Shown: positions 3,771-23,871 of the stretch, one piece after another | How the letters are laid out: the number at the start of each line of letters is the position of its first letter | Position numbering within the stretch: position 1 is the first letter of the stretch | DNA from: Opitutaceae bacterium UBA2377 | GTDB lineage: Bacteria; Verrucomicrobiota; Verrucomicrobiia; Opitutales; Opitutaceae | DNA length: 36,893 nt | Reading direction: 5' to 3' | Assembly: GCA_002344205.1 (NCBI GenBank) | Contig: DDSZ01000047.1 | Location: 1-36,893, forward strand | Program-made: the position numbers and the translations under genes | The notes under the pieces: generated by a model | Databases searched by the model: none | What the model saw: only the letters and a program-made list of their open reading frames with translations | What the model was told of the DNA's origin: nothing

Positions 3771-4026
3771 AGGCACGTTGGGTTGAAGAGAACGCCTTCC
3801 CTTTACCTTGATGCGTGCCAACCGGGTTTTGTGATTATGTAAGTTAAAGAATAACAAATATTAGAAAAATAATGCATCGATTCGGCGGAGCAGGCGATGG
3901 GTGGAAACCATGCAATTTGCGCGACTGTCGCTGGCCCGGGGGTGCATTTTGCATGACACGTTGCGTAAGTGCATGCAGGGCAATTCGACTCGCCAAGCCG
4001 ACTGATTGGCGCACGGTTGCCGGCAC
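3771..4026. promoter_or_regulatory. AT-rich divergent control region between sigma gene and galT
   Basis: This 256-base gap separates divergently transcribed genes. Positions about 3830-3885 are strikingly AT-rich for this window and are the likely promoter zone, although I cannot pick confident -35 and -10 boxes. The galT-proximal part carries three TGCA-centred palindromes, listed separately. No open frame here looks like a gene. Confidence 0.4.
3911..3977. promoter_or_regulatory. Three TGCA-type palindromes, possible operators upstream of galT
   Basis: GCAATTTGC (3912-3920), TGCATTTTGCA (3943-3953) and TGCATGCA (3970-3977) are each self-complementary around their centres. Centres lie at about 3916, 3948 and 3974, the first two about three helical turns apart. 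They lie 50-115 bases before galT. Short AT/GC-balanced palindromes of this kind are common operators for sugar regulators, but no regulator gene is next to them, so the role is inferred. Confidence 0.3.
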
Positions 4027-5082
4027 ATGACGGCGGCCTCGACCAAACCCCCTGTCTGGGAGCAACGCTGGCACCCGCTGCGCGAGGAGTGGGTGCTTTA
4101 CACGGCGCACCGTGGCGGCCGGCCGTGGATCGGCGATACGCACCGGCCGGCGGAGACCATGCCGCCCCACTACGATCCGGGCTGCGCGCTTTGTCCCGGC
4201 AACAAGCGCGTGAAAGGTGAAAATCCCCGTTACACGGGTGTCTATTGGTTTACCAACGACCTGCCGTGCTTTGCCAACGAGGCTCCGGCCGCGCCGGCGG
4301 GCGACGATTTTTACCGCACGCGGCCGGCGCAGGGGACGGCCGAGGTGGTGTGTTACAGCCCGGACCACGCGAAGACCTTTGTGGACCTGACCGATGCCGA
4401 GTGCGCCGCGGTCGTGGACCTGTGGACGGAGCGTTACCGCGAACTTGGCGCGCGACCGGAAGTGCACCATGTGCTGATCTTCGAGAACAAGGGCTCGCTG
4501 GTCGGCACGTCCAACCCGCACCCGCATTGCCAGATCTACGCCGGCAATCTCATCTACGGCTTCACGGCGCGCGAGGTGGAGAGCGCGCGGAAACATTGGC
4601 AAAAAACCGGCCGGCACCTCGGGCAGGACATCCTCGCCCGCGAACTCGCCGGACCGCGTGTGATCGCACAGAATGAAAGCTTCGTGGCCTGCGTGCCGTG
4701 GTTCGCGCGGTATGCCTATGAAGTTTACCTCCTCCCGCGTCGCGCGGTGGCATCGCTGGCCGATCTCACGGCGCCGGAACGCGCGCAGCTCGGCCGCATG
4801 ATCCGCGAGGTGACCACCCGTTACGACAACCTCTGGCAGATGCCGATGCCCTATGTCATGGCGATCCACCAGGCGCCGACGGACGGGCAGGACTACGCGT
4901 GTTTTCCGTTTCACCTCGAATTCCACCCGCCGCTGCGCAAGCCCGACACCCTGAAATACCTCGCGGGCCCCGAGATCGGCGGCGGCTCGATGACCAACGA
5001 GTCGGACCCCGACGAGAAGGCCGCGGAGTTGCGCGCGGTCCCGGCGGTGCATTACAAGCAGTCGGGAAAGGTCCAAGATTAA
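4027..5082 (+). CDS. galT: Galactose-1-phosphate uridylyltransferase
   Basis: A 351-residue HIT-superfamily enzyme that swaps UMP between UDP-glucose and galactose-1-phosphate in the Leloir pathway. Key residues are visible: the zinc-type pair Cys53-x-x-Cys56, His114 in SPDH, and the active-site motif NPHPHCQ with His165 and the uridylylated nucleophile His167. FENKG and the C-terminal HLEFHPP segment also fit. ATG at 4027 is chosen; an upstream TTG at 4006 would add seven residues without homology. It heads the carbohydrate cluster that runs to 12126. No galE or mutarotase is nearby. With an arabinokinase-like GHMP kinase downstream, the natural sugar-1-phosphate may not be galactose. Confidence 0.93.
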   Translation: MTAASTKPPVWEQRWHPLREEWVLYTAHRGGRPWIGDTHRPAETMPPHYDPGCALCPGNKRVKGENPRYTGVYWFTNDLPCFANEAPAAPAGDDFYRTRPAQGTAEVVCYSPDHAKTFVDLTDAECAAVVDLWTERYRELGARPEVHHVLIFENKGSLVGTSNPHPHCQIYAGNLIYGFTAREVESARKHWQKTGRHLGQDILARELAGPRVIAQNESFVACVPWFARYAYEVYLLPRRAVASLADLTAPERAQLGRMIREVTTRYDNLWQMPMPYVMAIHQAPTDGQDYACFPFHLEFHPPLRKPDTLKYLAGPEIGGGSMTNESDPDEKAAELRAVPAVHYKQSGKVQD

Positions 5083-5108
5083 CCACGAAGGGCGCAAAGG
5101 ACACGAAG
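5082..5108 (+). repeat. Left 27-bp inverted repeat flanking the GxxExxY gene
   Basis: The repeat begins on the last base of the galT stop codon and ends on the base before the GxxExxY start codon. It matches the reverse complement of 5486-5512 at 25 of 27 positions. Its core is the short periodic string CACGAAGG/CAAAGGACACGAAG. Confidence 0.9.
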
Positions 5109-5480
5109 ATGAACGAGGAGGATGCTGCCCGGGAGATCGTGGATGCGGCCATCGCCGTGCATCGGGAGCTGGGGCCGGGTCTGCTGGAGTCGGCCTATGA
5201 ACAATGCCTGGCCTTTGGGCTGATCCGACGCGGCCTGAAGGTGGAACGCCAGAAGGTGCTCCCAGTGATTTACCAAGAACTGCGGATTGATGCCGGTTAC
5301 CCGCTTGACCTGCTAGTGCAGGATCGCGTGGTGGTGGAACTCAAGTCAGTGGAGAAATTGGAGTCCATCCATGAGGCGCAGGTGCTGACATATCTGAAAC
5401 TATCCCGGTGCAGGATCGGCTTGCTGCTTAACTTTAATGTCCGGTTGCTCAAGGACGGCATTCGCCGTCTTGTGCTGTAG
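5109..5480 (+). CDS. GxxExxY family protein (PD-(D/E)XK nuclease-like fold)
   Basis: A 123-residue protein named for its N-terminal motif, seen here as Gly24-Leu-Leu-Glu27-Ser-Ala-Tyr30. The middle shows the pattern of PD-(D/E)XK nucleases: Asp67 in YPLDLLV, then Glu78-Leu-Lys80 in VVVELKSVEKL. The family's biological role is not established. The ATG at 5109 directly follows the left inverted repeat, with no room for a separate leader, so the repeat itself supplies the upstream region (AAAGGA lies 11 bases before the ATG). It interrupts a sugar-metabolism operon and has no obvious functional link with it. Family assignment is confident; nuclease activity is inferred. Confidence 0.9.
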   Translation: MNEEDAAREIVDAAIAVHRELGPGLLESAYEQCLAFGLIRRGLKVERQKVLPVIYQELRIDAGYPLDLLVQDRVVVELKSVEKLESIHEAQVLTYLKLSRCRIGLLLNFNVRLLKDGIRRLVL

Positions 5481-5485
5481 CCCAA

Positions 5486-5512
5486 CTTCGTGTCCTTTGT
5501 GTCCTTCGTGGT
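5486..5512 (-). repeat. Right 27-bp inverted repeat flanking the GxxExxY gene
   Basis: Inverted copy of the repeat at 5082-5108 with two mismatches. It begins 5 bases after the GxxExxY stop and ends 4 bases before the ATG of the next gene. Confidence 0.9.
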
Positions 5513-5516
5513 GAAC

Positions 5517-6509
5517 ATGAATCTCGAACAAGCCCGTAAGCTGCTCTGCACCCTGCAGGATCACATTCGCGATACCCTCGTCACGGCGCGGGCGAAGAGC
5601 GGGGCCTCGTTCGCCAACATCGCGGCGGTCACCGCGGCCGACACCATCTACCAGGTGGACAAGATCACCGAGGAGGCGATTTTCCACTGGTTCGAGCGGC
5701 ACTGGCCGAAGGCGTGGCCGGTGCAACTGATCATGGAAGGCGTCGAGGACGGCGACGAGGTCACCTTTCCCCGCGGCACGCCGGTGGCGAAGACCATCTG
5801 CAAGTGCATCCTCGATCCGATCGACGGCACGCGGAACCTGATGTATGACAAGCGCAGCGCCTGGGCGCTGGCGGCGCTCGCCCCGCAGCGCGGCGCGAGG
5901 AACACGCTCGCGGACATCACGGTCGCGGCGATGACCGAGCTCTCCACCAGCAAGATGTGGCGCAGCGACCAGTTGAGCGCGGTGCGCGGGCAGGGCGTGA
6001 AGGCGCGGGCCTTCGACCTCCGGACGCGGCGCTGGGCGGCGCTCAAGGTGCGGCCTTCGCAGGCGACGGATTTCAAGCACGGGTTTGCCTCGATCGCGCG
6101 GTTTTTCCCGGAAGGCAAGGCGCTCATGGCCGCGCTGGAGGAGGAGCTGTGGGATGAACTTTACGGGTTGGGCTCGAGCAGCTCGCCGCTGGTCTTCGAC
6201 GACCAATACATCGCGACCGGTGGGCAGCTCTACGAACTCGTCATCGGCCACGACCGCATGCTGGGCGACCTGCGTCCGCTGGCCCACGCGAAACTCGGGA
6301 TGAAGTCATCGCTGGTCTGCCATCCCTATGACATCTGCACCGCGCTGATCCTGCAGGAGGCGGGCGGTATCGTGGAGGCACCCGACGGCAAACCCCTGCG
6401 CGCGCCGCTCGACACGACCTCGGCGATCGCATGGATGGGCTACGCCAATCCCGTGCTCGCCAAAAAAGTGCGGCCGGTCCTGCGACGGCTGATCAAAAAA
6501 TACTTCTAG
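5517..6509 (+). CDS. Inositol monophosphatase (FIG) family protein
   Basis: A 330-residue member of the metal-dependent, lithium-sensitive phosphatase fold. The central motif CILDPIDGTRNL is the metal-binding DPIDGT signature. A C-terminal segment HPYDICTALILQEAGG matches the usual WDxAAGxLIxxEAGG with the metal-binding Asp kept. The usual first-motif GEE appears as GVEDGDE, so that metal ligand is altered or displaced. ATG at 5517 is chosen; the frame is open to a GTG at 5490, but those residues would be encoded by the inverted repeat. It sits between galT and a GHMP kinase, so a sugar-phosphate substrate is more likely than inositol phosphate. The fold is certain; the substrate is unknown. 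Confidence 0.88.
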   Translation: MNLEQARKLLCTLQDHIRDTLVTARAKSGASFANIAAVTAADTIYQVDKITEEAIFHWFERHWPKAWPVQLIMEGVEDGDEVTFPRGTPVAKTICKCILDPIDGTRNLMYDKRSAWALAALAPQRGARNTLADITVAAMTELSTSKMWRSDQLSAVRGQGVKARAFDLRTRRWAALKVRPSQATDFKHGFASIARFFPEGKALMAALEEELWDELYGLGSSSSPLVFDDQYIATGGQLYELVIGHDRMLGDLRPLAHAKLGMKSSLVCHPYDICTALILQEAGGIVEAPDGKPLRAPLDTTSAIAWMGYANPVLAKKVRPVLRRLIKKYF

Positions 6510-6520
6510 GCGGTCTTTTA

Positions 6521-6688
6521 ACCACGGATGAACACGGATAGAAACCAAGCTGCCCAATTTGTCATTCTGAGCCGAGGGAAGGTAGGGGCCGATCTCCGAG
6601 CGGCCCGCCTTCGCCAAGGCTTCGGCGGACAGGCCCGCCCGGAGGTCGGGCCCCACCCAGATCCGCGGCCATCCGTGCTATCCGCGGT
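6521..6688. repeat. Intergenic repeat island with outer inverted repeats
   Basis: The gap between the phosphatase and GHMP kinase genes is filled by repetitive sequence. Outer arms ACCACGGATGAACACGGAT (6521-6539) and the reverse complement of 6671-6688 match apart from a few changes and one gap. Inside are GTCATTCTGAGCCGAGGGA and a GC-rich segment CTTCGCCAAGGCTTCGGCGGA that can fold on itself. These strings resemble dispersed intergenic repeats I recall from other bacterial genomes. No coding capacity is apparent. Confidence 0.6.
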
Positions 6689-6717
6689 GAAGTTTGGCGG
6701 ACTTGAGGATCGCTGAC

Positions 6718-10117: not shown

Positions 10118-12126
10118 GCACAACTTCCCTCCCCACCGGCCGCCGCCGCGGCCTGCTGTTTGACGAGAACGACCTGCCGCGTATCCGTGCGAACACCACC
10201 GATCCGCGCTTCGCCGGTTTCTGGCACGAACAACTCGCCGCCGATGTGGCGGCAGACACGAAGTTCCTCCGCGAGGAGCTGCGGCTGACCAACCATGCCG
10301 TGCATCTGCTGCGCGCGCAGCGGATTCTGGAGCGGGCTTCTTTCATTTACCTCGTCAACCGCGACCCGGCCCAGCTCGCGCTGGCGAAGCTCGCCCTGCG
10401 GCGGATGCTCGATTACCCGGAGTGGGACAGCTTCATCGAGGGCGGCACGCAGGTGCTCGGCCTGCAGCGCGCCACCGAGGGCAGCGCCGCGCTGCTGGTC
10501 GCGCTTGATTGCCTGGGCGACGCGCTCACGCCGGCCGAGGCCGCGGAGGTCGAGCAAGCCGTGCTCACCAAAGGCGTGCCGGCGTGCCATGCGACCGTAT
10601 ACGGACTCAAATATCCCGACCGCGTGCGCGGCTGGGAGTGGAACCCGCGCAGCGAGGTGGACGAGTTCCGGCACATCAGTCTCAAGCGCTGGCCGCTCAT
10701 CCTCAACGCGACCAACCTCAAGATCATTCCCACTGCGTGCCTCGGCATTGCGGCCTGTCATTTCCGCGGCCGGGTGGCGGCGGCGGAGGGTTGGCTCGAG
10801 TTGGCGCGTTCCAGCGCGAAATCCTTCGCCACCATGTATGGCAGCGACGGGAGCTACGACGAGGGCGTAAGTTACTGGGGCTACACCACCCTCTACCTCG
10901 CGCTGTTTGCCGAGGTGCTGTGGCGCACCCAGGGCATCGATGACCGGCAGCTCATCAATTACCCGGGCACGGTGCGCTACGCGCTGGGCCAGACGATGCC
11001 CACCCGGGACAGCGGGCGGAAGCCGGCGGACTTCCAACATGTGAAAGGCTACATGATGGCCACGGTAAAGCCGGCATATGACGTGGTGAACCACGGAGAC
11101 TCCAACCATGGCGTGGAGGTGTCCGTGGCCGCGTGGGTGGCCCGCACGCACGACGACCCGGTGGCGCAGTTCGTGGCGCGCGACATCGGCGAGGTGAAAC
11201 ATTTCCCCGCGCTCGTCTGGTATGAGAACGCGCGGCCGGCGGCATCGCCGGAACCCGCGCTGCTCGACCAGCGGCTGAGCAATGACATCGTGATCTCACG
11301 CACCGGCTGGGGCGCGGAGGACAACGTGCTGGCCCTGCGCAGCGGTGGGCCGGCGAACCACGAGCACGCCGACCGCAACAGCGTCATTTTCAAGGCCTAT
11401 GGCGAACGCCTGCTGCACGATCCTTTCCGCGCCGCCTACATGGTGCAGAGCCCGCGTTGGATCCTGCGGCTGACCGAGGCGCATTCGGCGGTCCTGATCG
11501 ACGGCAAGGGCCACCAGTATCACGACGGCAGCGAGGGCACGAACGCCTCGTGGGCCTTCGCCAAGGTGACCGACCATGCGACGGGCCGTGGCTGGATGCG
11601 GGTCACCAGCGACGCGACGGAGGCCTACCAATTGGTGAATGACGATGTCGCCCTCGTGCAACGCACCCTGGTCTACCTGAAACCGGACGTCGTCGTCCTG
11701 CTGGACCGGGTGGAAATGAAGACCCGGCCGGCGCCCGTGCAGGTGCGCTTCCAGCTCTACAACGAGGACGGCGGCGGCCAGCAGCGGATCGACGGCGACG
11801 AGTTCACGATCACCCGGCCGGGGGCCTCTTTGCTGGGGCGCATCGGGAGCCGCGCGGGGCTCCGGTTGCAGGCGGGCCGGTTGCCGCTGGAACCCAAGGA
11901 CGGGGAGCAACAGTTCGCCGAGGTGGCATCAGCGGAATCCCGCACGCACGCCATCCTGACGGTCTGCACGGCGGCCCCGGCCGGAAAGAAACACGGCCGG
12001 CTTCAGCTGGTGCAGGGCGCCGCCGGCTGGGAGGTGCGGGGCGAGCACAACGGCCTGAAGGTCAACCTCTCCCTGACCCCGGGAAGCACCGGAGTGCCCC
12101 TGATTGGCGGACTGGAAAACCGGTAA
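10114..12126 (+). CDS. Heparinase II/III family polysaccharide lyase-like protein
   Basis: A 670-residue protein with an N-terminal alpha/alpha-toroid and a C-terminal beta-sandwich typical of heparinase II/III and related lyases, which cleave uronic-acid glycans by beta-elimination. In the toroid, DGSYDEGVSYWGYTT (about 246-260) holds the tyrosines expected of the catalytic region. At the start of the sandwich, GGPANHEHADRNSVIFKAYG (about 411-430) carries the conserved His cluster. No signal peptide is present (MSTTSLPTGRRRG), so it probably acts on imported oligosaccharides. It overlaps the ROK gene by four bases and is the last gene of the cluster. The polysaccharide cannot be told from sequence alone. 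Confidence 0.87.
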   Translation: MSTTSLPTGRRRGLLFDENDLPRIRANTTDPRFAGFWHEQLAADVAADTKFLREELRLTNHAVHLLRAQRILERASFIYLVNRDPAQLALAKLALRRMLDYPEWDSFIEGGTQVLGLQRATEGSAALLVALDCLGDALTPAEAAEVEQAVLTKGVPACHATVYGLKYPDRVRGWEWNPRSEVDEFRHISLKRWPLILNATNLKIIPTACLGIAACHFRGRVAAAEGWLELARSSAKSFATMYGSDGSYDEGVSYWGYTTLYLALFAEVLWRTQGIDDRQLINYPGTVRYALGQTMPTRDSGRKPADFQHVKGYMMATVKPAYDVVNHGDSNHGVEVSVAAWVARTHDDPVAQFVARDIGEVKHFPALVWYENARPAASPEPALLDQRLSNDIVISRTGWGAEDNVLALRSGGPANHEHADRNSVIFKAYGERLLHDPFRAAYMVQSPRWILRLTEAHSAVLIDGKGHQYHDGSEGTNASWAFAKVTDHATGRGWMRVTSDATEAYQLVNDDVALVQRTLVYLKPDVVVLLDRVEMKTRPAPVQVRFQLYNEDGGGQQRIDGDEFTITRPGASLLGRIGSRAGLRLQAGRLPLEPKDGEQQFAEVASAESRTHAILTVCTAAPAGKKHGRLQLVQGAAGWEVRGEHNGLKVNLSLTPGSTGVPLIGGLENR

Positions 12127-12159
12127 GAACGGGCTGAGGGAAATTCTTTAGAATGTTCG

Positions 12160-12186
12160 TTGACAAGGGTTTGTTGAGAGTAATCT
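12160..12186 (+). promoter_or_regulatory. Possible sigma-70 promoter for the large hybrid kinase
   Basis: A perfect TTGACA (12160-12165) lies 15 bases upstream of TAATCT (12181-12186), about 37-60 bases before the kinase start. The spacing is short and the -10 box is poor, so this is a suggestion only. Confidence 0.3.
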
Positions 12187-12192
12187 CGCTTT

Positions 12193-12220
12193 CCGGGGAA
12201 TTTGTCGGAATGCTCCCCGG
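12193..12220 (+). promoter_or_regulatory. Stem-loop ending two bases before the kinase start codon
   Basis: CCGGGGA (12193-12199) and TCCCCGG (12214-12220) form a perfect seven-pair GC-rich stem with a 14-base loop. The ATG is at 12223, so the folded leader would cover the ribosome site. Possible translational control is inferred. Confidence 0.4.
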
Positions 12221-12222
12221 CC

Positions 12223-15200
12223 ATGAAAGCTCCTTTGCCACCCGACGAGTCTGCGCGGTTGGCGGCAGTGCGCGACTATGCGGTGTTGGACACGCCGCCG
12301 GAGGCGGATTTTGACAGCATCGCGACGCTGGCGGCGCAGATCTGCGACATGCCCATCGCGCTGATCACGCTCATTGACGGGGAGCGGCAATGGTTCAAGG
12401 CGAAGGTCGGCATAGAAATCGAATCCACGCCGCGGGAGGTGGCCTTCTGTGCCCACGCCATCAACCGGCCCCGGGAGCTGCTGGTCGTGAATGACGCCAC
12501 CAAGGATCCGCGGTTTGCCGACAACCCCTACGTCACCGAAGCCAACGGCATCCGCTTCTATGCCGGCGCGCCGCTGGTTACGCCCGGCGGCCATGCCCTG
12601 GGCACTTTGTGCGTGGTTGACCGGAAGCCCCGTGAGATTTCTGCGGGGCAGCGCGAGGCGCTCGCCGTCCTCAGCCGGCATGTGATGACGCAGTTGCAGC
12701 TGCGCCGCCAGTTGCGGGAGCGCCAGCGCATCGAGCGCGCGCTGGCCGTCAGCGAGGAGCGGTGGCAGTTTGCCCTGGAAGGCAGCGACCAGGGCGTGTG
12801 GGACTGGGACGTGCCGAGCCAGACCGTGTATTTTTCCCCGCGGTGGTGCGCCCAGCTCGGCCATGCGCCCGACGAGGTGCCCCACCGGCTGGAGGAGTGG
12901 TCGTCGCGGGTGCATCCGGATGACCTGCCCGCCACGTTGCGGCGGATTCAGGAGCATTTCGAGGGGCGCACGCCGATCTACGAGGCGGAGTTCCGGATGC
13001 GGGCGAAGGACGGCACCTGGCGCTGGATCGCGGACCGCGGCAAGGTGATGACCCGCGATGCGGCGGGCAAACCCCTGCGGGTGGTCGGCACGCACATCGA
13101 CATTACCGAACGCCGCGGTCTGGAGGAAAAACTGCGGCGCAGCGAGGCCAGCCTGAGCCGCGCGCAGCAGGTCGCGCACATCGGCAGCTGGGAGACCGAT
13201 CTGGTCACGATGGAGGTGGCATGGTCGGAGGAGACCCACCGCATCTTCGGCACGTCGCCGGCGACCTTCCAGCCCAACCACGAGAGTTTCCTAGATCGCG
13301 TGCATCCCGAAGACCGCGCCAAGGTGCACGAGGCCTTTCTTGCCTCCCTGCCGGCGGACGAAGCCCGCGTGATGGAACATCGCATCTGTTTGCCGGACGG
13401 CTCGGTAAAACACGTCGAGGAGCGCTGGCGGGTTTTCCGGGAACAACCAGACCGGCCCGCGCGGGCGGTCGGCACCTGTCAGGACATCACAGGGCGGCGG
13501 CAACTGGAGGAGGACCGGAAAAAACTCATCCGCGACCTTGGGGAACGCCTGAAAGAAGTGCGGGCGCTTCATCAGGTGTCGGCGCTCCTCGGCAAGGGTG
13601 GCGCGCTCACACCTGCGGTGCTGGCACGCATCGCCGGCCTGCTGCCGCCGGCGATGCAATATCCGGAGGCCGCCGCGGCGCGCATCGTGCTGGGCGACCT
13701 GGTGCAGGAGACCCCGGACTATCCGCCCGGAGCGGCGGACCGGCTGGAGGCGGCGATTGACGGCGGGCCGGGCCTGGCCGGGCGGATCGAGGTGGCCTAT
13801 CGGGGAAAGGTGCCGGCGGCGGAGAAAGGACCGTTTTTGGCGGAGGAACACCGGCTCGTGGAATCGCTGGCGGAAATGCTCTCCACCCACGCGCGCCGGC
13901 ACGCCGCGGAGCAGGCCCTCGCGGAGACGCTCGAGTGCAACCGCGACCTCATCCGCTCCATCGAGGGCATCGTGTGGGAGGCGGATGCCGTTACCCTCGC
14001 TTTCACATTTGTCAGCGAACAGGCGCAGCGCCTGCTGGGTTACCCCACCCGGGCCTGGCTGGAGGAGCCCGAGTTTTGGGAGGAGCACATCCATCCGGAC
14101 GACCGCGCCGCGACCGTGCGCAGCTGCCGCGACCTTGCCCGGCAGGGCCGGGACCATGTGCTCGAATACCGGATGCTGGCCGCCGACGGCCGCGAAGTCT
14201 GGCTGCGCGACATGGTGACCTACGTGGCAGAACCGGGCCGCCGGCCGCTGCTGCGCGGCGTGATGATGGACATCACGGAGCGCAAGCTGGCCGAGGGCGA
14301 AATCAGTGCGCTGGCGCACCGGCTGACTGCCGTGTTGGAGAGCATCACCGACGCCTTTTACACCCTCGATCGCGGGTGGTGCTTCGCCTACCTCAACGGC
14401 GAGGCCGAACGCTTCCTGCAACGCCCCAAGGAGACCCTGATCGGACGCACTATCTGGGAGGAGTTTCCGGCCGCGGTCGGCTCCACCTTTGAGCGGGAAT
14501 ACCGCCGGGCGATGCAGGAGCGCGTGACGGTGGTGTTTGAGGAATTCTACCCCGCGCCGCTGAACCGTTGGTTCGAGGTCCGGGCCTATCCCTCCGACGA
14601 GGGGCTCGCGGTTTATTTCCAAGACATCACCGAGCGCCGCCGCTCGGCCGAGGCGTTGCGCCTGAGCGAGGAGCGGTTCCGGGAGCTGGCGGAAAACGTC
14701 GCCGATATCTTCTACAATTACGACCCGGTGAACCACCGGCTGCTCTATGCCAACCCGGCCTACGAAACCATTTTCGGCCGTTCCTTGGAAGGGGCCTACG
14801 CCGAGCCGCTGGATTACCTGCAGGGCGTCCATCCGGACGACCGGGCCGGGGTGGAGGCAGCATTGGCGAAGCAGCTCCGCGGTGAAAACACCGAGGCGAT
14901 CTTCCGGGTGCTGCGGCCGGACGGCTCAGTCCGCTGGGTCACCGAGCAGGCGGTGCCGGTGCTCGATGCCGCCGGCCGGGTGGAACGCCTCGTGGGCACC
15001 ATGCGCGACATCACCGAGCGCCAGGAGGTGATCAACCGGCTCAGTGTCAGCGAGGAGCGCTTCCGGCTGCTGTCCAAGGCGACCCAGGATGCGATCTGGG
15101 ACTGGGATCTGGTCACGGGCAGCTTCTGGTGGAGCGAAGGATTCGAAACCCTGTTCGGTTATTCCCTGGTCGAAATCGCACCGACCATCGATTCCTGGTC

Positions 15201-18200
15201 CGAGCGGGTGCATCCCGAGGACCGGGAGGCGGTCAATGCCGACGTTAACCGGGCGATTGCGCAGGGTGATGAGCGCTGGTCGGGGGAATACCGGTTTTTG
15301 CGCAAGGACGGCTCATACGCCTTCATCATGGACCGGGGCTACATCATCCGCGATGCCGCCGGCAAGGCGGTGAGGATGATCGGCGGCATGACCGATGTGA
15401 CCGAGCTCAAGCGAACGGAGAGCGAATTGCGCCGGAAGGATGCGCTGTTGCGGATGGCGGGCCGGTTGACGCGCACGGGCGGCTGGTCGATCGAGCTGCC
15501 CGGCCAACAGGTGTTCTGGTCTGACGAGATTTTTGATATCCTTGAATATCCCCCCGGGCAGCAGCCCCCGCTGGACGAAGGCCTGGCCCTCTATCTGGAA
15601 CCCTGGCGGCAACAGGTTGTGGCGGCGGTCGAAACCTGCATCCGCGACGGCACGCCCTTTGATCTGGAAGTTAGAATCCGCACCGCCAAGGGACGCACGC
15701 TCTGGGTGCGGGTGGGCGGAGAGGCCGACCGGGATGCCACCGGGGTGATCCGGCGGGTGCAGGGCGCAATGCGGGACATCACGGAGCGCAAGCAGGATGA
15801 GGAAGCCGTGCGGAAAAGTGCCGGGAGCCTGGCCGCGGCGCAGGCGATTGCCCATCTCGGCAGCTGGGAACTGGACCTGACCACGGGGCGCAGCATCTGG
15901 TCGGCCGAACTTTTCCGGCTGCTGCATCGCGATCCTGCGGCCGGAGCCGGTTCGTTTGCTGATTTTATCCAACTGGTCCACCCGGATGACCGGCCGATCT
16001 GCGAACAGGCCAATGCCCGGCTGCCTGAAGACCGGGCACCATATGAATTCGAATACCGCACGAATCCGGCCTTGGGCGCCATCCGTCACCTCAAGGCGGT
16101 CACCCATGTGATCCGCGATGAGCAGGACCGGGCGGTGAGCGCCACGGGCACCGTCCAGGACATCACCGAGCGCAAACAGGCCGAACAGGAATTGCTCCGG
16201 GCCAATCAGTCGCTGGAAGGCATCGTCAAGGCCCTCCAGCAAATTGGCACGGCCAAGTCCAATTTGCAGGATCTCTTGGAACTGATCGCGGCGCAGACGC
16301 AGACCTTGGCCGGAGCCAGCGGGGCCACCATCGAGTTCATCGAGGGCGACGAGATGGTTTACCGGGCGGGTGCCGGCTCGGCATTGAATCATGTCGGCCT
16401 CCGCCTGGCGCGCAGCAGAAGCCTTTCCGGGCTGGCCGTGCAGGAGGGCGCGACCCTGTTGTGTGAGGACACCGAGACGGATGCGCGGGTTGACCGGGCG
16501 GCTTGCCGCAAGGTGGGCGTGCGCTCGATGGTCGTCGCACCGTTGCGCGACGGGGAACAGATCATCGGGGTCCTGAAGATCCTGTCCGACCGGCCACATG
16601 CCTTCGGCCAGCGCGACATGGCCAACCTCCAGATTCTGGTCGAATCACTGGGGAGCATCATCCAGCGCAGGCGGCTCACCGAGCAAATGGCGGCCTCCGA
16701 GGAAAAATACCGGCTGCTGTTCGCGAACAACCCTCAGCCGATGTGGGTGTTTGACGCCGGCACGCTGCGCTTCCTGGCGGTGAACAATGCGGCCGTGCAG
16801 CATTACGGCTACAGCGAGGCCGAGTTCCTGGCGATGACCGTGCTCGACATCCGGGCGGAAGACGACCGCACGACCCGCGAACAGGCCCTGGCCAAAATGA
16901 TCCACGCGGGCCGCGACACCGCGTTGCGCCGGCATGTGAAGAAGGATGGCGCCGTGATCGAGGTCGAGGCGACCTCCGACAGCGTCGTGCTGGACGGCCG
17001 GCCCGCCCGGCTCGTGGTGGCCCGCGACGTGACCGAGCGCCGCCGGGCCGAGGCCAAGGTGCGCGAGCAGGCCGCGCTCCTCGACAAGGCGCAGGACGCC
17101 ATCATGGTGCGCGACCTCTCGCACCGCATCACCTACTGGAACAAGAGCGCCGAGCAGATCTACGGCTGGACGGCGGCCGAGGCCATGGGCCAGCCGCTGG
17201 ACAAACTGCTCCACGTTGATCACCAAAAATTTGACGAGGCGGACCGGCAGGTGCGGGAGACCGGCGAGTGGAACGGCGAAATCCAGAAACACTCCAAGAC
17301 CAAGGTCATGCTGACGATCAGCGCCCGGTGGACCCTGCTGCGGAACGATGCGGGCGAGCCGGAGGCCATCCTCACCATCGACACGGACATCACCGAGCGG
17401 AAAAAGCTGGAGCAGCAGTTCATGCGGGCGCAGCGGATGGAAAGCATCGGCACACTGGCCGGCGGCATTGCGCACGACCTCAACAACCTCCTGGCCCCGA
17501 TCACCATGGGCGTCGAGCTGCTCAAGCAGTTCAACCCCGACGAAAAGTCCCGCCGGCTCATCACCAACATCGAGCGCAGCGCGAAGCGCGGGGCGGACCT
17601 CGTGAAGCAGGTGCTCTCCTTTGCGCGCGGCGTGGACGGCGCGCGGGTATCGGTCCACCTCAAGCACCTGGTGCGCGAGGCCGAGTCCATCCTGGAAAAC
17701 ACCTTCCCGAAGAACATCCGGCTGGAGTCGTCCGTGCCGAACGACCTCTGGCTGGTGCAGGGCGATCCCACGCAGCTCAACCAGATCCTCCTCAACCTGT
17801 GCGTGAACGCCCGTGATGCGATGCCGTCGGGCGGACAGCTTACCATCCAGGTGCGCAACACCCGGATTGACGCGCAATATGCCGCGATGAATCCCAACGT
17901 GCGCGCGGGGCCCTACGTTCAGATCGAGGTCACCGACACCGGCACGGGCATGCCGCCCGAGATCATCGACCGCATCTTCGACCCGTTTTTCACCACGAAG
18001 GACGTGGGCAAGGGCACCGGCCTGGGCCTCGCCACCGTGCAGGGCATCATCCGCAGCCACGGCGGTTTCATCACGGTTTACAGCGAGGTCGGCAAGGGCA
18101 GCACCTTCAAGGTTTACCTCCCGGCCCAGTCCGAGGCGGCGGCGCCCGCGGAGGCCGCGCCGGCCGAGGAAGCGCTGCCCCGCGGCGCGGGCGAGCTGAT

Positions 18201-18564
18201 CCTGGTCGTGGACGATGAGGCCACGATCCTCGGCGTCACCCGCCAGACCCTGGAGACCTTCGGCTACGAGGTGCTCACCGCCGAGGACGGCGCGCAGGCC
18301 ATCGGCCTGTATGCGCTGCACCGCGCGCGGGTCGCCCTGGTGCTGACGGACATGATGATGCCGGTCATGGACGGGCCGGCGCTGATCACCGCGCTGCAGC
18401 GCATCAACCCCGCCGTGCGTGTCATCGCCTCCAGCGGCCTGAACGCCAACGGCGGCGTGGCCCGGGCCGCGGCCGCGGGTGTCCGGCATTTCCTGCCCAA
18501 GCCCTACACGGCCGAGACCCTGTTGAAGCTGATCAAGCAGGTCCTGGACAAGCCCGTGACCTGA
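12223..18564 (+). CDS. Giant multi-PAS/GAF hybrid histidine kinase with receiver domain
   Basis: A 2113-residue hybrid sensor kinase with no membrane segment, so it senses cytoplasmic cues. Approximate order: GAF (19-165), PAS (178-294), PAS (310-422), degenerate GAF-like segment (448-561), six PAS (573-683, 698-801, 816-929, 944-1058, 1073-1185, 1202-1313), GAF (1337-1481), two PAS (1493-1603, 1619-1722), HisKA with His1751 in GGIAHDLNN, HATPase (about 1848-1964, with NARDAMP and [11 protein letters not shown]), and a receiver (1990-2111) with phospho-acceptor Asp2043 in [12 protein letters not shown]. Most PAS modules end in DITER. ATG at 12223 is preferred to TTG at 12202. Its output partner is not evident; the three signalling genes downstream on the same strand are candidates. 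Confidence 0.93.
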
Positions 18565-18583
18565 GCCGGCCGGCGACATTCCC

Positions 18584-20575
18584 ATGCATGCGACTTCGGC
18601 CCATCCGTTCCCCGGTTATGTGCGGGCCGCGATTGGCGCCGGGGCGGTCGCCGTCGCGGTCGGGCTGCTGGTGCTCACCGGCTGGGCGCTCGGGGAGGAA
18701 ACCCTGAAGCGCATCCTGCCCGGACTGGTGGCGATGAATCCGCTCACTGCAGTGGGTTTCATCCTCGCCGGGCTGTCGCTGCTGTTCGGGTGTGCGCCGC
18801 CGTCGCCGGTCCGCCGGAGGTCGGCCCGCGCCGCCGCGGCGGTGGTGGCGCTCATCGGGCTCGCCAAGCTCGGCGAACACGCTTTCGGGTGGCACTTGGG
18901 CTTCGACCGCTGGCTGTTCCGCGAGAGCCTGGATGTGCCCGGGCTGCTGCCCAACCGCATCGCGTCCACTACCGCGCTGAACTTCACCCTGCTCGGGCTG
19001 GCCCTGCTGCTGCTGGACCGGACAACGGCACGGGGCCCCCGGCCGGCGGAGCTGCTGGCCCTGCCGGTGGTGCTGACTTCCCTGCTGGCGCTTTTCGGCT
19101 ACGCCTACGGCGTGCAGTGGCTCTATGTCGTGCCCGCCTTCATCCCGATGGCGGTGCACACCGCGCTGTGTTTCCATCTGCTCGCACTCGGGGTGCTCTG
19201 CGCCCGGCCGGACCAGGGGATCATGGCGTGGTTCACCAGCGCCGGTGCCGTGGGGATGCTGTTGCGCTGGCAGTTGCCGGGGACGGTGACGATCCTCTTC
19301 TTCTTGGGCTGGCTGCGATTGGAAGGGCAGCGCCGCGGCTTCTACGGGACCGAGCTGGGGGTGGCGCTGCACTCGATGTTGAACGTGACCCTGTTCAGCG
19401 GTCTCATCCTGTGGAGCGCCTGGCTGCTGCGTCGCGCGGAGGCGGCCCGCCGGCGCGAGCAGGAGGAGCGCGAACGCTTTTTTCAGCTCTCGCTCGATTT
19501 ACTGGGCATCGCTGACAGCGATGGACGGTTCAAGCGGGTAAATCCCGCGTTTACGGCCACCTTGGGATGGAGCTCGGAGGAAATATTGAGCCGGTCCTTC
19601 CTGAATTTTGTGCATCCCGACGACCTCCCTGCGACTGTGGCCGAAGTGGACAAGCTCAAAGGCGGGGCCCCGACCCTGCGCTTTGAAAACCGCTGCCGTT
19701 GCAAAGATGGCACCTGGAAGTGGCTGGCTTGGAAGAGCCAACCGTTTCCCGAAGAAGGCCTCCTTTACGCCACGGCCCACGACGTGACCGAGCGGAAGGA
19801 AGTGGAACTCGCGATTCAACGGCTGAACACCGAACTCAAGGGCCGCGCGACGGAGCTGGCCGAGGTCAACCGCGAGCTGGAGGCGTTTTCCTATTCGGTC
19901 TCGCACGATCTGCGCGCCCCGCTGCGGCACATCCAGGGCTATGCGGAAATGCTGCGCACCGCCCTCGGGAAAAACCTCACGGAACCCGTGCCGCGTTATT
20001 TGACGACGATCCGGCAGGCCGCGGAGGAGATGGGCAAGCTGATCGACGACCTGCTGGCCTTTTCCCGGGTCGGTCGGGTCGGCCTGCAGCGGCAAGGGGT
20101 CAACCTCGGGCGACTGGTGGCCGAGGTGCGGCAGGCGCGCGAGCTTGACCTTAAGGACCGGGCCATCGAATGGCGCATCGGCCCGCTGCCGGAGGTCGAG
20201 GGCGACCCCAACCTGCTGCGGCAGGTGTTGGCCAACCTGATGGACAACGCGGTCAAATACACCCGCGGCCGTGATCCGGCGGTGATCGAGATCGGCGCGA
20301 CCACCGGGGCCGACGGCGAAATCACGGTCTTCATCCGCGACAACGGCGCGGGTTTTGACCCGCAGTATGCGGGCAAACTCTTCGGCGTTTTCCAACGCCT
20401 GCACCGGGCGGACGAGTTCGAGGGCACGGGCATCGGGCTCGCGACCGTGCGGCGGATCGTCACGCGGCACGGCGGCCGCACGTGGGCGGAGGGCCGGGTC
20501 AACGAAGGAGCGGTTTTCTATTTCACTTTGCCGGCGGGTGGCGCAACCTCGGCCGCTCCGGCCCCGCCGTCATGA
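18584..20575 (+). CDS. Membrane-bound PAS sensor histidine kinase
   Basis: A 663-residue membrane kinase. Residues about 10-285 hold several hydrophobic helices of a membrane sensor region that I cannot assign to a named family. A PAS domain (about 295-405, ending HDVTERK) and a short coiled-coil (LNTELKGRATELAEVNREL) follow. The HisKA domain has His441 in FSYSVSHDLRAPLRHIQGY, the bacteriophytochrome-like type, and the HATPase shows NLMDNAVKYT and GTGIGLATVRRIV. There is no receiver domain. It overlaps the next gene, a CheY-like regulator, by ATGA, which makes that protein its probable phosphotransfer partner. The signal is unknown. Confidence 0.92.
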   Translation: MHATSAHPFPGYVRAAIGAGAVAVAVGLLVLTGWALGEETLKRILPGLVAMNPLTAVGFILAGLSLLFGCAPPSPVRRRSARAAAAVVALIGLAKLGEHAFGWHLGFDRWLFRESLDVPGLLPNRIASTTALNFTLLGLALLLLDRTTARGPRPAELLALPVVLTSLLALFGYAYGVQWLYVVPAFIPMAVHTALCFHLLALGVLCARPDQGIMAWFTSAGAVGMLLRWQLPGTVTILFFLGWLRLEGQRRGFYGTELGVALHSMLNVTLFSGLILWSAWLLRRAEAARRREQEERERFFQLSLDLLGIADSDGRFKRVNPAFTATLGWSSEEILSRSFLNFVHPDDLPATVAEVDKLKGGAPTLRFENRCRCKDGTWKWLAWKSQPFPEEGLLYATAHDVTERKEVELAIQRLNTELKGRATELAEVNRELEAFSYSVSHDLRAPLRHIQGYAEMLRTALGKNLTEPVPRYLTTIRQAAEEMGKLIDDLLAFSRVGRVGLQRQGVNLGRLVAEVRQARELDLKDRAIEWRIGPLPEVEGDPNLLRQVLANLMDNAVKYTRGRDPAVIEIGATTGADGEITVFIRDNGAGFDPQYAGKLFGVFQRLHRADEFEGTGIGLATVRRIVTRHGGRTWAEGRVNEGAVFYFTLPAGGATSAAPAPPS

Positions 20576-21036
20576 TTTCCCTCAACCGCATCCTGCTGGT
20601 GGACGACAGTCCGCGCGACCGCGAAATGGCGCTCGAAGCCCTCGCGGCCAACAACCTCGCCAACGAGGTGGTGCCGCTGCGCGACGGGGTGGAGGCGCTG
20701 GACTACCTTTACCGCCGCGGCGAACACGCCGCCCGCCCGCCGGGCAACCCCGCGGTGATCCTGCTCGACCTCAAGATGCCCCGTCTGGACGGGCTTGAGG
20801 TGCTGCGGCAGGTCAAGCAGGACCCCGCGTTCAGGCGCATTCCCGTGGTCGTGATGACGTCCTCACGCGAGGAACACGATCTGGTCAAAAGCTATGATTT
20901 GGGCGTGAACGCCTACGTCGTGAAACCGGTGCGTTTCCAGGAATTCGTGGAGGCCGTCCGACAGCTGGGCGCGTTCTGGGCGGTCCTCAACGTGCCGCCG
21001 CCGGACACCGCCCCGGCCGAGGGCTCCCGGCCATGA
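20572..21036 (+). CDS. Single-domain response regulator (CheY/Rcp1-like)
   Basis: A 154-residue receiver-only protein. The acidic pocket is Asp11-Asp12 (LLVDDSPRDR), the phospho-acceptor is Asp66 in VILLDLKMPRLDG, the conserved Thr is in VVMTSS and the Lys in YVVKPV. The insert after the third helix (YRRGEHAARPPGNP) is typical of regulators partnered with phytochrome-type kinases such as Rcp1. No output domain is present. ATGA overlaps on both sides tie it to the membrane kinase upstream and the hybrid kinase downstream, suggesting it passes phosphate between them or acts by protein contact. Confidence 0.93.
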   Translation: MISLNRILLVDDSPRDREMALEALAANNLANEVVPLRDGVEALDYLYRRGEHAARPPGNPAVILLDLKMPRLDGLEVLRQVKQDPAFRRIPVVVMTSSREEHDLVKSYDLGVNAYVVKPVRFQEFVEAVRQLGAFWAVLNVPPPDTAPAEGSRP

Positions 21037-22997
21037 GCAGTGTGCCCATCCGCATCCTCCACCTGGAGGACAACGAAGCCGACAGCCGGATGATCGGCGA
21101 CCTGCTTGATCAGGCCGGCCTGATTTGCGCGCTCAACCGGGTGGACGGCCGGGAGGCGCTGCTGGCCGCCTTGGGCGAGGACCGGCACGACATCGTGCTC
21201 TGCGATTACAACCTTCCCGGTTACGGCGGCCTGCGGGCCATCGCGGATGTCCGCCGCCTGCGGCCGGAGCTGCCGGTGCTCATCGTGTCCGGCTCGATTG
21301 GCGAGGCCGAGGCGGTGAAGTGTCTGCATCACGGCGCGACCGATTACCTGCTGAAGCAGAAGCTCGACCGGTTTGTGCCGGCCTTGCGCCGGGCCCTGCA
21401 GGAAGCGGCGGCCGGGCGGGCGCAGCGCGAGGCCGAGGCGGCGCTGCGGGCGAGCGAGGAGAAATTCCGCCAGCTGGCGGAAAATATCCAGGAGGCCTTT
21501 TGGATCAGCGATCCGGCGAAGGAGGCCATGATTTACATCAGCCCGGCCTACGAGACGATCTGGGGTCGCACCTGTGCCAGCCTCTATGCCCGGCCGCAGG
21601 ACTGGATGGAGGCGATTCATCCCGAGGACCGCGACCGGGTCCGCCGCGCGGCGCTGACGAAGCAGGCGACGGGCACCTACAAGGAAGTTTACCGCATCGT
21701 GCGCCCCGACGGCGGCATCCGCTGGATCCGCGACCGGGCCTTTCCCGTGCGCGATGGGACCGGCCGGGTTTACCGCATCGTCGGCACGGCGGAGGACATC
21801 ACCGAGCAGAAGGGCATCGAACAGCAACTGCTGCATACGCAGCGGCTGGAGAATGTCGCCCGGCTGGCCGACGGCGTGGCGCACGACCTGAACAATCTGC
21901 TCGCCCCGATCCTCATGGGCGTGGAGCTGCTCCGGCTGAAGACGGCCGACCCGGGCCTGCACCGTCTCATCGACAGCATCGGGCAGAGCGCGTTGCGCGG
22001 GAAGGAGCTTGTGCAGCAGGTGCTGTCGTTCGCGCACGGCATGGGCGACGGCCAGGTGCCGGTCACGGCCCGCAACCTCATCCGCGACCTGCAGGCCGTG
22101 GTGGCCAATACGTTTCCCAAAAACATCACGGTGGACTACCGCGTGCCGGCGGACCTGTGGTTGATCTCCGGTGATGCCGGCCAACTGAGCCAGGTGCTGC
22201 TCAATCTTTGCATGAACGCCCGGGATGCGATGCCGCAAGGCGGGGTCATCGCGATCCAGGCCGAGAACATCCGGATCGACACGCTCTACGCCGGCACCCA
22301 GCGCGAACTCGCCCCCGGCCGCTATCTGCGGCTCACCGTCACCGACACCGGCCCTGGCATGGCGCCGGAGGTCCGGTCCCGCTTGTTTGAACCGTTCTTT
22401 AGCACCAAGCCCGGCGAGGCGGGCACGGGCCTCGGGCTGCCCGTGAGCCAGCGCATCGTGCAGGATCACGGCGGTTGCATGGAGGTGTTGAGCGAGGTGG
22501 GGCGCGGCAGCAGCTTCCGGGTTTACCTGCCGGCTCTGGGCCAGGGCGCGCCGGCGGGCGGCTCGGCCAATCCCTTCGGCGAACTGCCCCGGGGCCGGGA
22601 TGAACTGGTCCTCGTGGTGGACGACGAAGTCTCGGTTCTGGAGATCATGCGCGAAACCCTGGAAGCCTTCGGCTACCGGGTGCTCACCGCCGAGGACGGG
22701 GCGCAGGCCGTCGCTGTTTTTGCCGCCCGGCAGGAGGAAATAGGCCTCGTCCTGACCGACATGATGATGCCGGTGATGGACGGGGCGGCGCTCATCGCCG
22801 CGGTTCGCCGGCTGAAACCCGGGGTGGGCATCATCGCGGTCAGCGGGGTCAATGCGACCTACAACCCTGCGCGGTTGGCGGAGCTTGGCATACCCAATTT
22901 CATCGCGAAACCCTTCACCGCGCCGGAGCTGCTGGCCACGGTCCGCAAGGTGCTGACCGAGTTGAAGCCGGGAACGGTGGGGACCTCGGATGCCTGA
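21033..22997 (+). CDS. Receiver-PAS-histidine kinase-receiver hybrid protein
   Basis: A 654-residue soluble hybrid. The N-terminal receiver has acceptor Asp58 in IVLCDYNLPGYGG; a PAS domain (about 140-265) ends AEDITEQK; HisKA has His284 in [14 protein letters not shown]; the HATPase has NLCMNARDAMP and GTGLGLPVSQRIV; the C-terminal receiver has Asp576 in [12 protein letters not shown]. The kinase and last receiver closely match the C-terminus of the 2113-residue kinase at 12223, pointing to duplication. A kinase with a receiver at each end can take phosphate from an upstream kinase and pass it on. It overlaps the preceding regulator by ATGA. No DNA-binding output is visible. Confidence 0.92.
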   Translation: MSSVPIRILHLEDNEADSRMIGDLLDQAGLICALNRVDGREALLAALGEDRHDIVLCDYNLPGYGGLRAIADVRRLRPELPVLIVSGSIGEAEAVKCLHHGATDYLLKQKLDRFVPALRRALQEAAAGRAQREAEAALRASEEKFRQLAENIQEAFWISDPAKEAMIYISPAYETIWGRTCASLYARPQDWMEAIHPEDRDRVRRAALTKQATGTYKEVYRIVRPDGGIRWIRDRAFPVRDGTGRVYRIVGTAEDITEQKGIEQQLLHTQRLENVARLADGVAHDLNNLLAPILMGVELLRLKTADPGLHRLIDSIGQSALRGKELVQQVLSFAHGMGDGQVPVTARNLIRDLQAVVANTFPKNITVDYRVPADLWLISGDAGQLSQVLLNLCMNARDAMPQGGVIAIQAENIRIDTLYAGTQRELAPGRYLRLTVTDTGPGMAPEVRSRLFEPFFSTKPGEAGTGLGLPVSQRIVQDHGGCMEVLSEVGRGSSFRVYLPALGQGAPAGGSANPFGELPRGRDELVLVVDDEVSVLEIMRETLEAFGYRVLTAEDGAQAVAVFAARQEEIGLVLTDMMMPVMDGAALIAAVRRLKPGVGIIAVSGVNATYNPARLAELGIPNFIAKPFTAPELLATVRKVLTELKPGTVGTSDA

Positions 22998-23049
22998 GGC
23001 CGGAGAGGGTTGGACATTTGCCCGGGCCGCGCGACAATTGCGGTCAATC

Positions 23050-23871
23050 ATGCGTCCCGTCGAAATCCCCGCGAGTTACTACCAGCAATTCGATGCCGAC
23101 TACCGTCGCGCCGTGCCGGCCGAGGGCTACGGCGGCTGGAAAAAATCCCGCATCGGGCTGGCGCCGCGGCACACCGCGCTCGTGGTAATGCACGCGTGGG
23201 AGTGCGGGACGATGGAGCAGTGGCCCGGCTGGCGGCGCTGCGTGGAATATCATCCGCGGGCGCTGAAGATTTTGGCGGAAGTTTTTCCGCCGCTGCTCCG
23301 CGCGGTGCGGGCCTCGCCCCTGCCGGTGTTTCACGTGGTTGGCGGTCGCGATTACTATTCCCACCTGCCCGGCTACAAAAGCACGGTGAAGCTCGCCGGA
23401 CCTTCGCCGAAGCCCAAGCCCGTGCCGAAGGATGCGGTTTACCGGCGGCTGGATAAATTTCGCGCCGACAAGGTCTTTGTGGGCCGGCGAAATTGGCCCG
23501 ATGTGCGGAAGGGTTTCAAGCGGCTCGACTTTGCGCCGGCGGCGCGCCCGCTGGCCGGGGAGCCGATCGCCGAGGACGGCCATCAGCTCGCGGCACTCTG
23601 CCACGCGCACGGCATCAACCACCTCGTCTATGTTGGGTTCGCGATCAACTGGTGCCTGCTCATGTCGCCCGGAGGCATGGTGGACATGACGCGTTACGGT
23701 GTCATGTGCTCGACGATCCGCGAGGCGGTGACGGCGGTGGAGAACAAGGAGACGGCGCGCGGGGAGCGCGAAAAGCAGCAGGCGCTCTGGCGCGTGGCAA
23801 TCAACTCGGGATTTGTGTTTGGCGCGCAGGATTTCATCAAGGCCGTGAAGTCGCTGCCGCCCAAGGCCTGA
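23050..23871 (+). CDS. Isochorismatase-fold cysteine hydrolase-like protein
   Basis: A 273-residue protein with the Rossmann-like fold of the isochorismatase/nicotinamidase superfamily. HTALVVMHAWECGT occupies the first strand, where active enzymes normally carry the catalytic Asp (VIDMQ); here the position looks like His48. The later segment VGFAINWCLLMSPGG supplies a candidate nucleophile Cys202. The protein is longer than typical members, with an insert around residues 85-150. ATG at 23050 is preferred; the frame is open upstream to about 22990 without homology. The gene stands apart from the signalling cluster by about 50 bases. The fold is probable; catalysis is uncertain because of the altered residue. 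Confidence 0.7.
   Translation: MRPVEIPASYYQQFDADYRRAVPAEGYGGWKKSRIGLAPRHTALVVMHAWECGTMEQWPGWRRCVEYHPRALKILAEVFPPLLRAVRASPLPVFHVVGGRDYYSHLPGYKSTVKLAGPSPKPKPVPKDAVYRRLDKFRADKVFVGRRNWPDVRKGFKRLDFAPAARPLAGEPIAEDGHQLAALCHAHGINHLVYVGFAINWCLLMSPGGMVDMTRYGVMCSTIREAVTAVENKETARGEREKQQALWRVAINSGFVFGAQDFIKAVKSLPPKA

Follow-up and report, generated by a model that had tools for sequence, protein, structure and literature searches.

The unit described here lies at positions 5082–5512 of a stretch of 36,893 nucleotides from Opitutaceae bacterium UBA2377 (contig DDSZ01000047.1; the whole stretch is hereafter called the window), where a small gene of the GxxExxY family is enclosed by two inverted arms in the space between galT and a phosphatase-like gene. 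The occurrence of this gene-in-array layout in many bacteria suggests an undescribed repeat-spreading system that is based on a Cas4-like nuclease. The explanation that we put forward, with a confidence that is about even, is that the unit represents, in a version that carries the gene, a system resembling that of repetitive extragenic palindromes (REPs) and REP-associated tyrosine transposases (RAYTs), but run by a minimal Cas4/RecB-like PD-(D/E)XK nuclease. Its basis in the data consists of the architecture, a match between word and protein subfamily, co-occurrence across genomes, two deletion derivatives, turnover at intergenic slots, and purifying selection in one set of sequences.

The original prediction, made from the letters of the window, placed 27-bp inverted repeats around the gene, and the repeats are indeed there: counted by eye, 25 of 27 positions match in inverted order, and the computed arm pair extends to 33 nt at 88%. 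The inverted-repeat score of the arms is 46, far above the maximum of 30 in 5000 two-base block shuffles of the flanks and the best score of 27 at 354 places of the same geometry elsewhere in the window. The left repeat starts on the last base of the galT stop codon TAA (5080–5082) and stops before the ATG at 5109, whereas the right repeat is located between the TAG (5478–5480) and the ATG of the next gene at 5517, a start that was read by eye (the tool for open reading frames, ORFs, starts this gene at the GTG at 5490). From their position, the arms are a plausible source of the ribosome-binding region. Each arm is built from three 7-base words with a step of 9 bases, which on the left are CACGAAG (5084–5090), CGCAAAG (5093–5099) and CACGAAG (5102–5108), and on the right occupy 5486–5492, 5495–5501 and 5504–5510 on the opposite strand. 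The features of this region are:

5082–5108, forward strand: left arm, with CACGAAG, CGCAAAG and CACGAAG as inward-pointing words at a step of 9 bases
5109–5480, forward strand: GxxExxY (PDDEXK_3) gene, 123 amino acids, GPGLLE subfamily, from Pfam, NCBIfam, alignments and a model
5486–5512, reverse strand: right arm, the words of the left arm in inverted order, from repeat comparison
4006–5082, forward strand: galT, upstream neighbour (TIGR00209, 280 bits, cut-off 102.1)
5517–6509, forward strand: inositol-monophosphatase-like gene, downstream neighbour (PF00459, 31.5 bits, cut-off 27)
6518–6691, no strand assigned: pair of arrays with no gene between them, built from a different word (CACGGAT ... 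ATCCGTG), at the next operon junction, read by eye

At the junction of 6518–6691, two genomes of the same genus (G073 and G100) have CGGAT-type sequence with a different interior. Further on in the window, about 11 kb (11713–23063, including an ORF of 2120 amino acids) have no counterpart in the 20 kb of syntenic G073 sequence used for comparison.

Searching the source genome and its relatives for further repeat-bounded copies, as had been proposed together with the original prediction, revealed that the layout recurs. Loci were taken from the same family, the phylum, named genomes (Bacteroidota, Chloroflexota, Acidobacteriota, Planctomycetota, Verrucomicrobiota, Proteobacteria and a Methanothrix bin), ten genomes reached through the named ones, and viral contigs. 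A word was defined as the 7 bases CRCNRA[G/A/T], and at least two inward words had to be present in both 150-bp flanks. The 167 loci were reduced to 158 after removal of duplicates and to 153 after omission of five of these 158 with too little flank; the short stretches L042, L056, L058, L239, L177, L180 and L200 were excluded from the counts. Inward arrays on both sides occur at 116 of the 153 distinct GxxExxY loci, as compared to 5 of 266 control ORFs at the same loci, and the opposite, outward orientation at 19 GxxExxY loci and 10 control ORFs. In the named genomes, 54 of 75 loci have inward arrays; at the Methanothrix-bin locus (L136) clear arms were not seen. Word steps cluster at 8–10 bases, the longest chain comprises three words in 129 and two words in 66 of the 306 flanks, and the span from outer word to outer word has a median of 513 bp over the 116 units. 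An earlier version of the comparison with control ORFs (80/135 versus 0/207) contained duplicated loci, used a narrower word, and is superseded. Permuted pairing of arms was also tried as a test, with a median of 37 observed against 18, and no more than 23 of 77 loci attain the 99th percentile of the permuted pairs, because words are common to different loci; the comparison with control ORFs is the better test. The source genome itself (G000; 3.46 Mb, 51 contigs) has six GxxExxY genes; read by eye, these are enclosed by five pairs of arms, which are similar in design and comprise four kinds of words. Two of these genes (L006 and L003, contig C12) stand in tandem within one weak arm pair, and from one of the two the conserved residues E, D and E-x-K have been lost.

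The last base of the word follows the protein subfamily. For proteins with the GPG motif, the words end in G at 82 loci and in A or T at three, with one tie and 28 loci without two words per arm, whereas for proteins with other motifs they end in A or T at 29 loci and in G at one, with four lacking two words per arm (Fisher p = 1e-22, a statistic that ignores relatedness). Five motif-less loci were kept outside the test; the words end in A at four of them and are too few at the fifth.

Presence of the gene also goes together with abundance of the arrays. Among 100 genomes of the bacterial family of the window, 85 encode a GxxExxY gene, and in these the density of CRCRRAGNNCRCRRAG, with arrays counted whether or not they hold a gene, has a median of 13.3 per Mb, as compared to 2.6 per Mb in the 15 genomes without the gene (p = 5e-8), whereas a reversed control pattern gives 2.0 versus 1.7 per Mb (p = 0.31). 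Since gene-bearing units account for about 1.3 hits each (30 family loci), the 372 genes explain roughly 500 of the 6831 hits. The majority of arrays lie outside gene-bearing units. The original prediction had named repeats that occur independently of GxxExxY genes as an observation that would speak against it; geneless arms do exist, but a high density of arms is confined to genomes in which the gene is present.

The protein encoded in the window scores above the curated cut-offs of PF13366 (142.5 bits; cut-off 22) and TIGR04256 (145.7 bits; cut-off 35), and its predicted structure (pLDDT, the predicted local distance difference test score, 95.6) has the Cas4-type nuclease-core fold. Residues E27, D67, E77-x-K79 and Q91xxxY95 are conserved in alignments, and we take them to be catalytic, by analogy with the nuclease superfamily. 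The E-D-ExK-QxxxY motif resembles that of Cas4 and RecB-type nucleases, with which the protein shares the core fold and a weak profile similarity, but GxxExxY has only 123 residues and its neighbours in the window are galT and the phosphatase gene. Cas4 carries cysteines for an Fe–S cluster; in GxxExxY no column with a conservation of at least 90% is a cysteine, and alignment A3 has one majority cysteine. At E 0.001, PF13366 is the sole profile matched by the one gene in the unit, further matches being PD-(D/E)XK-like, and neither an HUH (tyrosine) nor a DDE-type transposase is present in the unit. A sequence search for solved relatives gave none at E 1. In the open PubMed Central literature that names the family or its accessions, the passages concerned state no function (subscription papers and preprints are outside this scope), and those passages of a Geobacter genome paper that treat multicopy sequences do not show these words. 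At locus L320, in-frame translation of the left arm gives TTKRTKGTK ahead of the start methionine, so annotated N-termini of relatives may include a translated arm.

According to passages of one study (PMC2817692), the RAYT gene lies between two inverted repeats, gene and repeat coevolve, and presence of the gene tracks repeat abundance. GxxExxY genes share the flanking inverted cognate repeats (116/153 loci), the relation between gene presence and repeat abundance (one family, 100 genomes, kinship ignored), and gene–repeat coevolution in the form of the word–subfamily match (kinship again ignored). RAYTs are described as IS200/IS605-like tyrosine (HUH) transposases that process single-stranded REPs, whereas GxxExxY is a PD-(D/E)XK nuclease associated with tandem 7-base words. 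The study cited above reports rayt evolving much faster than its neighbours, whereas the GxxExxY gene appears to be only slightly faster. In the mechanism that we envisage, the nuclease would recognise arrays of its own 7-base word, which flank its gene in opposite orientations, and would act on the paired arrays, perhaps when these are extruded as a cruciform. Arrays, and rarely the whole unit, would then be copied or exchanged between intergenic slots, and internal deletion would leave geneless palindromes that may persist and spread. Binding of the words, cleavage, and the role of the nuclease as cause of the spread are what we infer from the pattern. That GxxExxY nucleases drive a second REP-like system, widespread in bacteria and separate in origin from RAYTs, which spreads subfamily-specific word palindromes through intergenic slots with its own gene as an occasional passenger, is proposed tentatively, at somewhat less than even confidence.

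Intergenic slots outside contig C12 were compared in relatives; galT, argF, the hemW-like gene and IVP were named from profile matches, whereas argG, gyrA/B, gatA/B and a cyclase were named by eye from what we take to be their conserved peptides. At the galT slot, G073, G100 and also G015 of another genus have geneless palindromes of words ending in AT, and the galT–phosphatase unit with CACGAAG words is found at the same place in G059, of the genus of G015; in G039 and G095, galT was searched for without a match. Occurrence of the unit in another genus suggests that it is probably old at this slot. Presence of the gene here in all relatives had been named as an observation that would speak against the original prediction, and this is not the case (G073 and G100 lack it). 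The prediction had also led to a comparison of the galT–phosphatase junction for a clean empty site or target duplication, but neither was detected in the relatives compared, the congeners holding a palindrome of another word instead. For the argF–argG slot, 30 relatives were fetched, the argF end was found in all 30 and argG was in reach in 24. Of these 24, two (G000 and G085, from different genera) have the unit, G052 has an internally deleted unit that keeps both gene ends, seven (G073, G015, G049, G022, G062, G018 and G004) have a spacer of 18–38 bp, and the remainder have longer unit-less sequence, which in G002 and G051 contains a geneless palindrome; G095 and G039 are without the unit as well. 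Given so few unit-bearing relatives, the unit may have been gained repeatedly. On contig C24, one unit of G000 adjoins the tail of a gene for a four-helix-bundle IVP that is whole in G073 (PF05635, 126.6 bits); at a second site a full unit in G073 corresponds in G000 to no more than arms in decay and 17 nt of residual gene; and a third has a geneless palindrome in G000 and a single IVP-type arm in G073. At two sites the gene has been removed by an internal deletion, with the pair of arrays remaining. The gyrB–gyrA slot has the unit in G000 and G059, a single arm in G095, a geneless palindrome in G100, and other neighbours in G073 and G039. In 30 species of Flavobacterium, read by eye, the hemW slot has the unit in 12, a geneless palindrome of one kind in 10 and of a second kind in 6, a solo palindrome made of the word of the unit in one, and is empty in one. 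On the hemW tree the unit requires at least two changes on well-supported branches and six by parsimony (with L217, one of the 12, unlabelled).

Such patchy occupancy of the same site, in full, decayed and empty states, is shared with homing endonuclease genes, and a homing-type selfish gene, the nuclease of which cuts unit-less alleles of a slot so that repair copies the unit in, would pass through a similar cycle of gain, decay and loss. The mixed content of the argF–argG slot, with its seven spacers of at most 38 bp, and of the hemW slot agrees with this, as does the pair L208/L220, in which the nuclease genes differ by 1.1% and hemW by 10.5%. However, the near-identical tract of this pair starts within the unit and continues into the gene that follows, which is what ordinary recombination would give; the unit lies between genes and inside word arrays, unlike homing endonuclease genes; its divergence tracks that of the flanks at shared slots; and the dispersed arrays are left unexplained. 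We consider homing possible but unlikely.

In six comparisons of shared slots the unit is slightly more divergent than its flanks, with identities of 74.8% versus 79.2% for argF, 80.7% versus 86.5% for gyrB, 71.5% versus 78.1% for galT, and 72.5–73.6% versus 79.5–80.7% for gatB at the gat slots. This fits vertical descent and an old presence with losses, and judged by these identities and by the dN/dS ratio (nonsynonymous to synonymous substitution rates) of one set, the unit is an old one with turnover rather than a freely jumping element. Of the self-contained mobile or selfish unit that was originally predicted, the repeat-bounded and recurrent structure, the geneless derivatives and the patchiness at fixed junctions stand, whereas a clean empty site or target duplication was not found here, and the divergence at shared slots fits vertical descent. 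At the hemW slot in Flavobacterium the median ratio of nonsynonymous to synonymous substitution rates (dN/dS) is 0.10 for the nuclease and 0.06 for hemW (55 pairs each, without L233), which points to purifying selection on the nuclease in this set. Carriage by phages (three viral loci, from two peptide patterns in viral contigs; no PHROG at E 0.1) and by plasmids (7 of 72,556 plasmid records, by tblastn with one query) was considered and rejected. Purifying selection, the occupation of the same junctions in several genera, and these few viral and plasmid matches would suit a resident host gene that is not selfish and has the arrays as binding sites, for autoregulation, chromosome organisation or processing of palindromes. 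Its patchiness among congeners, several replacements by unrelated palindromes or another gene unit, and an intact unit in only 2 of 24 argF–argG slots make this improbable in our opinion.

Turnover is not peculiar to GxxExxY words, since several word classes show it. Between two Flavobacterium genomes of about 95% identity, 96 orthologous intergenic slots were compared. In 24 of them both genomes have a palindrome, and the content is not well alignable in 7 of these 24, as compared to 3 of 65 slots that are palindromic in neither. This would be expected if mutation by itself (slippage, template switching) created the palindromes and the gene were there by chance, but the words are subfamily-specific and gene and arrays co-occur, and we regard this origin as very improbable. 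The multicopy palindromes of G033 (L295–L302), with near-identical arms and spacers, were considered as a recent spread of units and rejected, as several are part of a larger repeat, about 300 bp long and dispersed in the genome; the interiors of L300 and L301 are unrelated.

An element acting at the RNA level can also be envisaged, similar to the intervening sequences of 23S rRNA with their IVP/S23 gene, in which the arms form an RNA stem that is cut by RNase III. The size and layout are alike, as intervening sequences are units of about 430 nt with a small ORF (428 nt in Coxiella). Their protein and words are unrelated to those of GxxExxY, however, the unit is here located between protein genes, and G:U-compatible mismatches between arms are not favoured (143 versus 186), which gives no signal of RNA pairing; we attach hardly any credence to this possibility. 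IVP (PF05635) genes occur between inverted arrays of other words as well (AGTGTTCAGT, GCTTACCGCTT and GTGCGGAGT; L104 1251–1622, L117 1255–1632, L154 2143–2496, and L172), and they represent a parallel system with an unrelated four-helix-bundle protein.

Several observations weigh against a REP-like system driven by the nuclease. No movement was observed, units at shared slots diverge along with their flanks, and close comparison by eye of the one clean junction, at argF–argG, did not reveal a target-site duplication. Neither the subfamily–word match nor the gene–array correlation is corrected for phylogeny, 37 of the 153 loci are without two words per side, and three of the 15 gene-less genomes still show a threefold excess over the control, one of them on three hits. 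Template switching could also be the reason why both arms of a unit have the same words. Finally, a Foldseek search with the window protein gave no match in the PDB at E 0.001, the best being lambda exonuclease at 9e-3.

For the GxxExxY family, which is common, candidate DNA sites are now given, and the specificity would be predictable from a motif in the protein. The system further offers a possible cause for the abundance of palindromes in intergenic regions. If the explanation is true, the chemistry by which repeats are spread would extend beyond the HUH and DDE types.
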